Shown: positions 15,860 through 37,975 of the stretch, piece by piece
Layout of the letters: every line of letters begins with the position of its first letter
Numbering within the stretch: position 1 is the stretch's first letter
From: Candidatus Faecaligallichristensenella faecipullorum
GTDB taxonomy: Bacteria; Bacillota; Clostridia; Christensenellales; Aristaeellaceae
Assembly: GCA_018716505.1 (NCBI GenBank)
Contig: DVJW01000139.1
Span: 1-42,488 of the forward strand
Length of the DNA stretch: 42,488 nucleotides
Reading direction: 5' to 3'
Position numbers and translations under genes: made by a program
Notes under the pieces: generated by a model
What the model was told of the DNA's origin: nothing
The model's database searches: none
Seen by the model: only the letters and a program-made list of their open reading frames with translations

Positions 15860-18859
15860 ATGCTGGAACAGGATTTTTTGACGCCGCCGGATTCCTGCCG
15901 GGGCACGGATTTCTGGATGCTCAACGATGAGCTGGAGGAGGGCGAGCTCAGGCGCCAGCTGCGCTCCATGCGCGATCAGGGGGTGGCGTCGGTCATTGCC
16001 CGCACCTATATCGGGCTCAGGTCCGACTATCCGGGCAAAGATTGGATGAAAAAAATGCATGTGGTGGTGGACGAGGCCAAGAAGCTGGGCATGACGGTTT
16101 TCATGCAGGCCGGTTACATGCCCGAGGCCGTGCTGGGCCTGCCTGAGGAATTCTCTTTGGGCGAGGTGCGCGCCTGTCCCGCGGGTCAGGGCCAGGGCCG
16201 GGTGTTGGATTCCTTTAACGGGGTGGACTATTGTTTAACCAGCTCCAGGACCATATTGGATATGCTCAGCCCCGAGGCCTGCGCCTTTTATGTGAAACAG
16301 AGCTATGAGGAGATGTGGAAGGAATTTAAGGACGAGTACGGCAAGACCATTGTGTCCATGTGGGTGGACGAGCCCAGCTTTGCCAAGGTGGCGTTGCCCT
16401 GGACCAAGGGGCTTCCGGCGGCCTATGAGCGGCTCTGGTCCGAAGCCTTTCCCATGGAGCAGCTGCACCTGTTGTTCGTGGACGGCCCGGGGGATGGGTT
16501 CTTTAGGCTGAAATATTGGCGCACCGTGCTGGAACTGATGAAAAACGCCTATTTCAAGACGGTGCGCGACTGGGGACGCGCCAATCACATCCGCTTTAGC
16601 GGCCACCTGATGGAAGAAGACACCATGGAGCGCCAAATCCGCGCCACCTGCTTCACCATGCCCATGTACAAATACTTTGATATTCCGGGCATCGACTACC
16701 TGACCGCGGAAATGGATTGGGTGCATGGGGAGATCAAGCCCGAAAAGCCCTTCGACGAGCGGTGGAGCCATTACGCCCGCTACAATACCCCGCTGCAGTG
16801 CAGCTCCGCCGCCCATCAGGCCGGGCAAAAGGTGATCCTGGCCGAGATGTACGGGGTGAGCACCGAAAACCTGAACCTCAGGGATCAAAAGCAGATGTTC
16901 GATCATTTCGCCTCGCTGGGCATCAACCACCGCAGCGTACACGGCATCTTTTATTCGCTGCGCGGCCGGGGCAAGCGCGCCTATCCGCCCCATGTGAGCG
17001 ATTATCAGCCCTATTGGCCCAAATACCATCTGCTCACCGACGCCCTGGCCCGGGAGAGCGCCTTTTTGCGGGCCGGAGAGCCGGCGCGCGACGTGCTGCT
17101 CCTGCATCCCATGGAGACCGCCTTCAGCCTGTATCGGGCCAGGAATGAGCGGGGCGTTCAGCACAACCCGGAGCTGGGACGTGCCGACGCGGCCTTTAAC
17201 CAGACCATCCTGGCCCTGATGGGCATGGGGGCCAACTTTGAGCTGGGCGACGAGGACACCATCGCCGAAATGGGCGCGGTGGACGCGGACGGCGCGTTTG
17301 TGGTGGGCAAGATGCGCTATCGAACCGTGATTTTGCCGGATATGCGCTTTATCCGCCGCAGCACCTTGGCCTTGCTTCAAACCTTCATGAGCCGGGGCGG
17401 CCGGGTGGTGATTTACGGAAAGCGCCCGGAATTTTTGGACGACGGAAGCGCGCTAAACGAAGGGGCGCTGGAGGGCGCGCAAAGGGCGGACTCCACCCGC
17501 GAACTGGAGGAATATCTGAAAAAAGCGCCCCAAACCTATCGCTTTGAGGCCAGAAACGGCGAGGCCTGGGTGCAGATCTACGCGCAGCGGAAGGGCGATG
17601 AGCGCCTGTTCTTCCTGACCAACGCCAATTGCCGGGAGCGGGCAGCGGGCAGCCTGGTGGTGCCCGGGCAAATGGAGTGCCATTGCTTTGAGGCGCTGGA
17701 TGGATCCGTTTCGCCCTATCCGGTCCGGTCAGAGGACGGTTTTACCCGGGTAGAGGTGGAATTGGAGGCCGGGGGCAGCCTGATGCTTCGCCTTCGCCCG
17801 GGCCAGGGGCAAACCGCCGTTCCATCCGGGCCGGAGGTGGTGCTGCCCCTCAAACCCAAATGGCGCATCCGCCGGGAGGACCCCAACGCGCTGGTGCTGG
17901 AGATGTTCCGCTTTGCCAGGGACGGCCAGGCGATGAGCGGTCAGGCCTATCCCATACTGGCCATACAGGATGAGCTGCTGAGTCAGGGATTTACCGGCGA
18001 ATTGACCCTTGAAACCGGGTTTGAGAACGAAATTCCCCTGGAAAACCTGCGCCTGGCCCTGGAATATCCAAAGCAGCAGCGCCTGGAGCTGGACGGCGTT
18101 CCCCTTTTGAATGACCCCACGGGCTGCTACCGCTGTTTTGCCTTTGAGACGGTTGCGCTGCCCCGCCTGGAGCCGGGCCGCCATACGTTGACCATTCGGC
18201 GGCATTTTGAGCCCATGCGCAAGCCCACCTCCACCGTGACCTCGCTGTTTGAGAATTTGGGCGGGGTGGATTTGGAGCCCATGCTGATTCTGGGGGATTT
18301 CGCGGTGCGCTCGGCCATCGAGCCCGGGGTGCGCGGCTGCGTGCGGATGAGCGAGGATTTTGTGCTCACCCGGGAAACGGAATGGGCCGGGGAAGAGCTG
18401 GTCTCCCAAGGCTATCCCTTCTATTGCGGAGTCATGGAGATGACGTGCGAAATTCAGCTGCCCGATGGGGCAAAAGAGGCGCGCCTGACCCTGGACGGGC
18501 TGCTGGCCGCCGAGGCCGAGGTGCGGCTGAACGGCGAATCCTGCGGGGAAATGACCTGGGCGCCCTACAGCGTACCCCTTAAAAATTTGCGCCCGGGCAA
18601 GAACGACCTGACCCTTCGGCTGCACGGAACCTTGCGCAACCTGCTGGGCCCCTGGCACCGGCCGGTGGGGGAAATCGGGGCTTGCTGGGCCGGATATGAC
18701 GCGCCCAATCAGCCCTGGCAGGGATGCTTTGCCCATGAGGACGGCCGCACCTATCCCGATTGGGCCCAGCGGCGCAGGCCCGACAAGCCGGGCTGGACCG
18801 AGTCCTATCTGCTGTTGCCCCTGGGGTTGGCAGGCGCGGCGCTGCGGTGGAAAATCTGA
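15860..18859 (+). CDS. Large (999 aa) glycoside hydrolase-like protein (TIM-barrel N-terminus, beta-sandwich C-terminus)
   Basis: SDYPGKDWMKKMHVVVDEAKKLGMTVFMQ resembles GH106/GH2-like rhamnosidase-type barrels; C-terminal jelly-roll-like ARLTLDGLLAAEAEVRLNGESCGEM. Confidence 0.65.
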   Translation: MLEQDFLTPPDSCRGTDFWMLNDELEEGELRRQLRSMRDQGVASVIARTYIGLRSDYPGKDWMKKMHVVVDEAKKLGMTVFMQAGYMPEAVLGLPEEFSLGEVRACPAGQGQGRVLDSFNGVDYCLTSSRTILDMLSPEACAFYVKQSYEEMWKEFKDEYGKTIVSMWVDEPSFAKVALPWTKGLPAAYERLWSEAFPMEQLHLLFVDGPGDGFFRLKYWRTVLELMKNAYFKTVRDWGRANHIRFSGHLMEEDTMERQIRATCFTMPMYKYFDIPGIDYLTAEMDWVHGEIKPEKPFDERWSHYARYNTPLQCSSAAHQAGQKVILAEMYGVSTENLNLRDQKQMFDHFASLGINHRSVHGIFYSLRGRGKRAYPPHVSDYQPYWPKYHLLTDALARESAFLRAGEPARDVLLLHPMETAFSLYRARNERGVQHNPELGRADAAFNQTILALMGMGANFELGDEDTIAEMGAVDADGAFVVGKMRYRTVILPDMRFIRRSTLALLQTFMSRGGRVVIYGKRPEFLDDGSALNEGALEGAQRADSTRELEEYLKKAPQTYRFEARNGEAWVQIYAQRKGDERLFFLTNANCRERAAGSLVVPGQMECHCFEALDGSVSPYPVRSEDGFTRVEVELEAGGSLMLRLRPGQGQTAVPSGPEVVLPLKPKWRIRREDPNALVLEMFRFARDGQAMSGQAYPILAIQDELLSQGFTGELTLETGFENEIPLENLRLALEYPKQQRLELDGVPLLNDPTGCYRCFAFETVALPRLEPGRHTLTIRRHFEPMRKPTSTVTSLFENLGGVDLEPMLILGDFAVRSAIEPGVRGCVRMSEDFVLTRETEWAGEELVSQGYPFYCGVMEMTCEIQLPDGAKEARLTLDGLLAAEAEVRLNGESCGEMTWAPYSVPLKNLRPGKNDLTLRLHGTLRNLLGPWHRPVGEIGACWAGYDAPNQPWQGCFAHEDGRTYPDWAQRRRPDKPGWTESYLLLPLGLAGAALRWKI

Positions 18860-18871
18860 TCAACAAGAAAA

Positions 18872-18897
18872 AGGGTCCGGGCGCAATTCCCGGACCC
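18872..18897 (+). terminator. Terminator hairpin, copy 1 (left flank of element A)
   Basis: AGGGTCCGGGCGCAATTCCCGGACCC, preceded by an A-tract; identical to 19121-19146. Confidence 0.75.
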
Positions 18898-19120
18898 AGC
18901 GTGTCGAAAAAGTCGACACGCTGTCAGGAAAATGAATACTTCATTTTCCTGAGTTGCATCATTTTCTTGCTGCCTTCGGCAGCGGCCAGAAAATGATAAA
19001 GGAAGCGGCCACCTGGGCCGCTCCTCGCGGCGTACACGCCGCCGCTGCGGATTGAATATGAAGGGGCCCCAGCCCCTTCATGCATCCCCAAGGAAATAAT
19101 TAAGGTTTTTTGACAGCCTG
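18898..19120 (+). mobile_element. ~223-bp stem-loop-array element, copy A
   Basis: Shares ordered hairpins with copies B (26735), C (37943, minus) and D (42252); flanked by 26-bp perfect direct repeats. Confidence 0.8.
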
Positions 19121-19146
19121 AGGGTCCGGGCGCAATTCCCGGACCC
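19121..19146 (+). terminator. Terminator hairpin, copy 2 (right flank of element A)
   Basis: Same 26 bp as 18872-18897, here followed by the T-tract TGATTTTT. Confidence 0.78.
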
Positions 19147-19154
19147 TGATTTTT

Positions 19155-20372
19155 CTATGGAACGGCGTTCATCCGCATATATTCCGCATAGGGCAAGGCG
19201 GCCGAGGTGGCGTATACGCATCCGCTGTAGCGGGACATATCCCGATTGATGAATTCAAAGGGCGCGCCCAATTCCCGATGGCGCCAGGTGTGCCGGATAA
19301 ACTCCTCCATCAGCGCCTGGGCCAGATCCGGAGCCTGGGGCTTTAAAGCCGCGTAGTACCATCCGGTGGGGGTGGACCAATAGTCCTCGTTTTGATAGCC
19401 GCCGCCCGGGCCCTTGCTCTGCCAATAGGGCGGATCGCAGCTGAGCGGCAGTTGGCGCACATAGCCGTGTTCCACCGCGGTGCGGCGGATATAGGCGGTT
19501 TCCAGCGCCTTGCGGGTGCGTTCCAGCGCCTGGGTTCGCCCGTCCAACACCCCGATGGAAACCGCGTAGGCCGTGCTCCATACGTCCCACTGGCGGCAGA
19601 TTCGGCTGGCCGAATAGAACCACCCGCTTTCCGGGTCATATAAATTGGATAGAATGGATTCGTCGATGCGTTGGGCCCGGGCCGTTCCGTCCCCCATCAG
19701 CCCCATTTCCTGCAAAGCCAGGGCGGCCTGCCGCCTGAGCAGCGAGGGCATCAGCATCAGGCCCGACTTATGGATGGAATCACAGAAGCCCCAATCCACC
19801 ACATACCGGCGGTCGTCCCCGGTGCAAAGGCCGGTTTTGGGATCAATGCAGTAGCCTTCCCAGGCGCGCGTCAGCCGCTCGCCCAGCGCCATGCCCGCAT
19901 AGTCCCGCCGTAAAACCGCCCTGTCGCCGGTTTGGCGCACATATTGGGCAGCCATCAGGATAAACCAATAGTTGTCGTCCAGCGGGGGATAGAAGCCAAA
20001 GGCGCCCTGTCCCTGGTCGTCCCCGTCCGAATAAGTGCCCGGAAAGAACACCGGGCGCCCGTTGTAGTTGATATGGTCGGCCACCGCAAAGGGCGGAACC
20101 CGCAGGGCATGCTGAAGCGCCCGGGGCTCAGGCCCGTTTTGGCCGCACAGGGCGATGTATTCGATATAGTGCAGCAGGTCGTCGTCGGCCATGAGTCCGC
20201 TCAGCGAACTCATGGCGCAGTCGCGCACCCAAAAGCTGGGGTATTTGTCATCCCCGGCGGGCAGAAACACCGGAAGCCGCCGCTCTGCGCCATAATAGCG
20301 GCAGTCCTTTTCAAAGCGGCAGGCGGCCAGGGTGCTTTGGGCGATTTCAAGAAGATGTGAAGCGCATTCCAT
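19155..20372 (-). CDS. Six-hairpin (alpha/alpha)6 glycosidase-like protein
   Basis: FWVRDCAMSSLSGL, YPPLDDNYWFILMAAQYVRQTGD, NEDYWSTPTGWYYAAL repeat-helix glycosidase patterns. Confidence 0.65.
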   Translation of the reverse strand: MECASHLLEIAQSTLAACRFEKDCRYYGAERRLPVFLPAGDDKYPSFWVRDCAMSSLSGLMADDDLLHYIEYIALCGQNGPEPRALQHALRVPPFAVADHINYNGRPVFFPGTYSDGDDQGQGAFGFYPPLDDNYWFILMAAQYVRQTGDRAVLRRDYAGMALGERLTRAWEGYCIDPKTGLCTGDDRRYVVDWGFCDSIHKSGLMLMPSLLRRQAALALQEMGLMGDGTARAQRIDESILSNLYDPESGWFYSASRICRQWDVWSTAYAVSIGVLDGRTQALERTRKALETAYIRRTAVEHGYVRQLPLSCDPPYWQSKGPGGGYQNEDYWSTPTGWYYAALKPQAPDLAQALMEEFIRHTWRHRELGAPFEFINRDMSRYSGCVYATSAALPYAEYMRMNAVP

Positions 20373-26722: not shown

Positions 26723-26734
26723 ACGACTAGATTC

Positions 26735-26957
26735 AGCGTGTCGAAAAAGTCGACACGCTGTCAGAAAAATGAATGTTTCATTTTCCTGAGTTGCATCATT
26801 TTCCTGTCACCTTCGGTGACGGCCGGAAAATGATAGAGGAAGCGGCCACCTGGGCCGCTCCTCGCGGCGTACATGCCGCCGCTGCGGATTGAATATGAAG
26901 GGGCCGCGGCCCCTTCATGCATCCCCAGAGTACCAAACTGGGTTTTTTGACAGTCCG
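26735..26957 (+). mobile_element. ~223-bp stem-loop-array element, copy B
   Basis: Same ordered hairpins and length as copy A; ends AGCGTGTCGAAAAAG...GGTTTTTTGACAGTCCG. Confidence 0.78.
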
Positions 26958-37689: not shown

Positions 37690-37721
37690 GAGCCCTTTCT
37701 CCGCCCATCGGAGGAAGGGCT
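37690..37721 (+). terminator. Terminator hairpin, copy 1 (left flank of element C)
   Basis: GAGCCCTTTCTCCGCCCATCGGAGGAAGGGCT, no T-tract here; identical to 37944-37975. Confidence 0.75.
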
Positions 37722-37943
37722 CAGACCATTGACAAACCTATTTTTCCCGTTTGGGGATGCATGAAGGGGCCGCAGCCCCTTCATATTCAATCCGCAGCGG
37801 CGGCATGTACGCCGCGAGGAGCGGCCCAGGTGGCCGTTTCCTTTATCATTTTCCGGCCGTCACCGGAGGTGACAGGAAAATGATGCAACTCGAAAAAATG
37901 AAAAATTCATTTTTTCGAAGGGTGTTGACTTTGTCAACACCCT
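37722..37943 (-). mobile_element. ~222-bp stem-loop-array element, copy C (inverted)
   Basis: Reverse complement shares all hairpins with A and B; flanked by 32-bp perfect direct repeats. Confidence 0.8.
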
Positions 37944-37975
37944 GAGCCCTTTCTCCGCCCATCGGAGGAAGGGCT
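37944..37975 (+). terminator. Terminator hairpin, copy 2 (right flank of element C)
   Basis: Identical 32 bp, here running into the T-tract (GGGCTTTTGA). Confidence 0.78.

Follow-up and report, generated by a model that had tools for sequence, protein, structure and literature searches.

How a short, gene-less element came to lie exactly between two copies of one terminator hairpin is the question raised by this locus, which is found in a 42,488-nucleotide stretch of DNA from Candidatus Faecaligallichristensenella faecipullorum that was analysed as a whole (the window). A sequence-only reading had claimed that the element is bracketed by a perfect 26-bp duplication of the host hairpin that directly abuts it on both sides. 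We reproduced these coordinates: AGGGTCCGGGCGCAATTCCCGGACCC occurs at 18872-18897 and 19121-19146, no further copy was present in the window even when three mismatches were allowed, and the repeat occurred 0 times in 100 dinucleotide shuffles, which excludes chance. The repeat may be counted as 25 or 26 bp because the left copy ends in a C that doubles as the first base of the terminal CAG of the element. The locus is best written as a 224-bp element at 18897-19120 (CAG...CTG), a 25-bp duplication and one shared C, the limits of the element being set by CAG...CTG ends as in nearly all of its relatives.

The hairpin sits between two convergent genes (Table 1). An A-tract is retained beside its left copy and a T-tract (TGATTTTT) beside its right copy, just as had been read from the sequence, and after insertion a hairpin followed by a T-tract is present in both directions. 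A terminator scan predicted one terminator on each strand, the right copy on the plus strand and the left copy on the minus strand.

Table 1. Features of the window at the duplicated hairpin and at two further copies of the element.
Feature	Position	Strand	Description
Host gene	15860..18859	+	Ends 12 bp before left hairpin copy; weak alpha-L-rhamnosidase (GH106) match
Left hairpin copy	18872..18896		25 bp (26 with shared C); 3' of A-tract; predicted minus-strand terminator
MITE	18897..19120	+	224 bp, CAG...CTG, no ORF, chain of hairpins; compensatory changes across 18 aligned copies
Left terminus	18897..18923		Inverted-repeat end, then the same end in inverted form: CAGCGTGTCGA-AAAAG-TCGACACGCTG
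Internal hairpin 2	18924..18952		TCAGGAAAATGAA...TTCATTTTCCTGA
Internal hairpin 3	18958..18997		ATCATTTTCTTGCTGCC...GGCAGCGGCCAGAAAATGAT; several compensatory pairs
Internal hairpins 4 and 5	19001..19046		One of the two swapped as a module between copies
Internal hairpin 6	19058..19081		ATGAAGGGGC...GCCCCTTCAT
Right terminus	19104..19120		Reads inward CAGGCTGTCAAAAAACC; resembles IS1182-type ends CAGCCTGTCAAAAAAGG (L100) and CAGACTGTCAAAAAA (L146)
Right hairpin copy	19121..19146		Followed by TGATTTTT; predicted plus-strand terminator
Convergent host gene	19155..20372	-	No Pfam or NCBIfam match
Third in-window MITE copy	26734..26957	+	Exception: no hairpin duplication; imperfect 9-bp repeat CGACTAGAT / CGATTAGAT
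Second in-window hairpin, copy 1	37691..37721		31 bp, unlike the hairpin at 18872
Second in-window MITE copy	37722..37944	-	Variant ends CAGGGTGTTGACAAAG / CAGACCATTGACAAACC
Second in-window hairpin, copy 2	37945..37975		Exact 31-bp duplicate of 37691..37721

The element itself is short, non-coding, multi-copy and bounded by terminal inverted repeats (CAGCGTGTCGAAAAA / CAGNCTGTCAAAAAA), as expected of a MITE: no ORF of at least 80 aa was found inside its 224 bp, and about 40 related places were located in the 2.93-Mb draft genome to which the window belongs. The ends come in two variants, CAGCGTGTCGAAAAAG / CAGNCTGTCAAAAAACC and CAGGGTGTTGACAAAG / CAGACCATTGACAAACC, some copies being mixed. 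This stretch folds far more strongly than shuffled sequence (z = -11), and alignment of 18 full copies resolved about six hairpins in a chain, in which 12 pairs have both partners altered in one copy or more. No Rfam family scored above threshold in 18600-19500, where one sub-threshold chance match was returned.

In order to see what flanks the other members of the family, we surveyed the 27 MITE copies of which both ends could be paired. The same hairpin was found on both sides in 17 of them, over lengths of 19-39 bp and letter-perfect in 11, and the sequence of the hairpin was specific to the locus, differing among the 17 sites; these copies thereby also carry the flanking target-site duplications of a MITE. 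The second in-window copy (duplicate hairpins at 37691-37721 and 37945-37975) belongs to the 17. Two further copies (L011 and L021) showed an apparent duplication with a small indel. About one third of the paired copies had no clear hairpin duplication (e.g. L007, L023 and L027), the remaining copies being degenerate, nested or flanked by a repeat of 7-9 bp only (L007, L023, L027 and L030, the last with 8 bp). A copy from another genus of the same family (L043, genome G031) has the same architecture, CAGTCTGTCAAAAAAGC ... with a palindromic CAGGGTGTCAAAAA end; as only about half of its target hairpin is repeated, it was not counted as a duplication. The claim that insertion had duplicated the whole target stem-loop is thus supported by the presence of the same element between different duplicated hairpins at many other loci. 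The accompanying view that such a duplication is unlike the short ones of ordinary elements was right, but it drew no connection to IS1182, for which the targeting of hairpins was already known.

Several individual copies showed peculiarities. A terminator-like hairpin lies about 30 bp beyond the third in-window copy (26734-26957). At L126 (G000:C222, element at 677-899 of the locus) the flanking hairpins are identical except for an inverted 4-base loop (TTAT vs ATAA), which perhaps arose by flipping of the hairpin or by two mutations, while at L012 the two flanking copies differ by one compensatory pair change, suggesting arm-to-arm correction inside a hairpin. Longer MITE copies have a mosaic middle of extra hairpin modules, and some copies are nested in or abut others. 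Seven elements (L028, L021, L062, L071, L075, L078 and L079) are mosaics of many small hairpin modules with the same ends, suggesting that they grew as hairpins were repeatedly inserted into or exchanged.

We then set out to identify the enzyme that could mobilise a gene-less element of this kind. No IS1182 transposase (match to PF13751, PF05598 or NF033551) was found in the window's own genome, but this is an 84%-complete draft of 236 contigs in which repeats are lost at contig ends, so that the absence counts for little; the mobiliser was therefore deduced from ends and behaviour. A search of 151 related genomes revealed a candidate partner IS in a relative of the same bacterial family, Eubacteriales bacterium OttesenSCG-928-N13 (L100, the same locus as L144). 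This 1.5-kb IS encodes a 449-aa transposase of the IS1182 family (NF033551, 409.9 bits against a cut-off of 270 bits; the transposase of the plasmid copy L203 scored 461.5 bits). Its ends CAGCCTGTCAAAAAAGG, also given as CAG-CTGTCAAAAAA, and those of a second IS, L146 (CAGACTGTCAAAAAA), match the MITE end CAGNCTGTCAAAAAACC, and the end GACCATTGACAAACC of L106 matches the variant MITE end. On both sides of L100 lies a AAACTGCCCAAGGGCAGTAA hairpin, a 20-bp duplication.

Scanning genome contigs with the L100 transposase gave 56 loci; in 26 elements CAG ends could be recognised and the flanks could be read. A whole hairpin of 20-33 bp was duplicated in 17 of these 26, L100 included, their other hosts being Lacrimispora, Mogibacterium, Tetragenococcus, Enterococcus, Streptococcus, Alkalithermobacter, Thermoflavimicrobium and Halalkalibacter. 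Three more cases were provided by the ISEfa7-type plasmid copies L202 and L203 and by an IS of the alphaproteobacterium Aminobacter (L212), so that L100 and 19 other ISs combine CAG ends with hairpin duplication; these candidate mobilisers of the IS1182 family thus have hairpins as their targets. At its left end ISEfa7 has a palindrome, CAGACTGTAGACA...TGTCTACAGTCTT, in which the end is joined to an inverted copy of itself, as is also seen on the left of the MITE. Left and right hairpins differ in the four ISs L106, L146, L184 and L186.

In a tree of 21 transposases, the CAG-ended, duplicating lineages formed one group (support 89/87). L106, with the variant MITE end and flanked left and right by hairpins that differ from each other, was sister to that group, and L146 was placed in it by its ends despite its unlike flanking hairpins. 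ISs with other ends (L101, L102, L112, L113 and L213-L216) fell outside and, in this small sample, showed no whole-hairpin duplication. Two of these IS1182-type elements, L112 and L113 (RCCTGTTGACAAA ends), apparently lie at the centre of a palindrome that they do not duplicate, a placement reminiscent of the replacing mode published for IS1272. Overall, the mobiliser of the MITE is likely to be a clade of IS1182-family ISs with CAG...CTG ends.

Sites that hold no element were then compared with their filled counterparts. In the Enterococcus faecium plasmid pELF_AA94 an IS lies between two copies of AAACGATGCCTATTTAGCATCGTTT, of which pELF_AA96, AA55, JHP80 and AA290 each have one. The records of pELF_AA94 and AA96 differ by 1561 bp, that is 1536 + 25, and when the flanks of AA94 are joined they match AA96 over 2,744 bp with 1 mismatch. 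Similarly, the empty site of E. raffinosus L209 carries a single TGGTATATCCATCGGATATGC hairpin where L202 is filled. For the MITE a paralogous empty site is available. The hairpin into which copy L004 is inserted belongs to a repeated module, and in about ten occurrences of this module that are not interrupted only one hairpin is present. The full-length ISs with the same ends thus behave as the MITE does, and their two empty sites lend further weight to the proposed duplication of the whole stem-loop.

The geometry of the duplications was examined in 36 MITE and IS cases, with the expectation taken from windows of the same length placed randomly in the same sites. The centre of the duplication fell on the dyad of the hairpin exactly in 28 of the 36 and to within 1 bp in all 36 (2.6 expected). 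Its length correlated with the span of the stem-loop (r = 0.60 for all cases; 0.80 without two A/T-extended stems), and at least five T within the next eight bases followed on at least one side in 30 of the 36. A fixed stagger would not produce such a pattern; cuts at the feet of the hairpin do, and the cut position seems to be set by the shape of the DNA and not by its sequence.

These results bear on several other ways in which such a locus might be formed. Since the hairpins directly abut the ends of the element, they might belong to it, as a terminator-like stem-loop carried at each end, but the hairpin varies from locus to locus while the element ends stay constant, and the empty sites already hold one copy; this reading is refuted and retains next to no credibility. 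Very improbable, too, is insertion between pre-existing tandem hairpins, or a second copy created by misassembly. The genome is indeed a fragmented draft, but the arrangement recurs at many loci, including unrelated finished genomes and plasmids, the empty sites are single-hairpin, and the difference between pELF_AA94 and AA96 is accounted for to the base by one IS and one hairpin copy. A further possibility is that the transposase recognises a sequence or a helical distance and makes a wide staggered cut there, hairpins being hit only because intergenic DNA is rich in terminators. Most targets are terminators with A/T-rich flanks, and the A/T-to-G/C boundary could therefore be the insertion signal, but lengths of 19-39 bp follow the size of the stem-loop, the duplications are centred on the dyad and the hairpins have no common sequence; we regard such a cut as unlikely.

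Two further alternatives concern the agent of insertion. RNA-mediated insertion, like that of group IIC introns, which home to terminators, would suit both the targets and the strong structure of the element, but the locus has no Rfam match and the element no ORF (the scopes being 18600-19500 and ORFs of at least 80 aa, as above), so that nothing of a group IIC intron or retroelement was found; the terminal inverted repeats are those common to a DDE transposon and the target duplications are long. We consider it extremely improbable. The sole DDE_Tnp_1 transposase found in the genome belongs to a multi-copy IS of the ISAs1 family (L080) that is present in at least three places and could on that count be proposed as the mobiliser, but its own end CACGGAAATCAATTTTC differs from the MITE ends; it was rejected as the partner and has almost no probability of being so. 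This IS (L080, L091 and L093; G000:C49, C97 and C145), with CACGGAAATCAATTTTC as its left end, breaks the assembly, and one of its copies lies inside an apparent further CAG-ended element, next to the palindrome ACAGGCCGGCCTGT. Replacement of the IS1272 type, in which the hairpin is removed and no duplication arises, does not describe these loci either: the hairpin is duplicated and the empty sites have one copy.

We conclude that, with high probability, a non-autonomous MITE, most likely moved by transposases of the IS1182 clade with CAG...CTG ends, entered a bidirectional intrinsic terminator between convergent genes and duplicated its whole stem-loop. This conclusion is carried by the duplication, which is exact at this locus and recurs at many unrelated hairpins, by its centring on the dyad and a length that follows hairpin size, by the single hairpin at two IS empty sites, and by the near-identical ends and the same behaviour of full-length IS1182-clade elements. 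As for the mechanism, we have fair confidence in a model in which the CAG-end IS1182 clade and its MITEs would recognise the target by its form, a four-way junction or an extruded hairpin, with both element ends becoming joined at the 5' feet of the stem-loops, the duplication being set by DNA shape and not by a fixed stagger. Once the hairpin or cruciform is extruded and recognised, the two 3' ends of the element would be attached to one stem-loop each, in both cases at its 5' foot. Gap repair or fill-in of both single-stranded hairpins would then leave one hairpin copy per side. The terminator would in this way be rebuilt on both sides and, as a complete hairpin stays on the A-tract side as well as on the T-tract side, both genes would keep a working terminator and the insertion would be nearly neutral or harmless.

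In the textbook case target duplications are all of one length, from which the stagger of the transposase can be read. The length found here is variable and tracks the palindrome, as would be expected of a transposase that recognises cruciforms. The proposed mechanism would explain how ISs repeatedly colonise terminators without breaking termination. A large natural dataset with clear empty sites also becomes available for testing structure-guided transposition, which for IS1272 is only a model. In addition, hairpin-flanked repeats in draft genomes may be true insertions rather than assembly errors.

Among small dispersed repeats, REP/REPIN, RUP and NEMIS resemble the window MITE in being palindrome-rich and intergenic; they differ in that they are not known to have target duplications other than short ones, if any. 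For IS1182, ISfinder may already list long palindromic direct repeats.

That IS1182 elements target terminator hairpins is known from published work. IS1272/TnSha1, of the IS1182 family in staphylococci, has terminator hairpins as its targets and shows no preference for a primary sequence (PMC4923244, PMC5678879); TnSha1, which contains IS1272, targets them with partial deletion (PMC4923244). For IS1272, Wan et al. 2017 described replacement of the hairpin, with whole-hairpin duplication given only as the hypothetical pathway b (PMC5678879, Fig. 13), and it is to this pathway that the mechanism proposed here would correspond. The outcomes are opposite: in IS1272/TnSha1 the hairpin is replaced or partly deleted with no target duplication, while here the whole hairpin is duplicated. 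ISCbo5 (IS1182 family, Clostridium) shares the gene-end targets, all of its insertion sites but one being hairpins at gene ends according to the main text, which is silent on hairpin duplication (PMC3098183). More generally, insertion by IS1182-type transposases sometimes duplicates the target and sometimes does not, and a structure in the target may be what these enzymes recognise (PMC12056078). In the open literature, with the main IS reviews and ISfinder outside this scope, we found no text that expressly describes duplication of the whole hairpin as the norm for a clade, or MITEs that use it. Among the closest known systems are the CAG-ended IS1182 ISs (ISEfa7 of Enterococcus and those of Streptococcus, Tetragenococcus and Lacrimispora), which are like the MITE in their CAG-N-CTG-T...-CAAA ends, their intergenic hairpin targets, the duplication of the whole hairpin and, in ISEfa7, the palindromic left end, but which are about 1.5 kb long and encode a transposase, whereas the window element has 224 bp and no gene.
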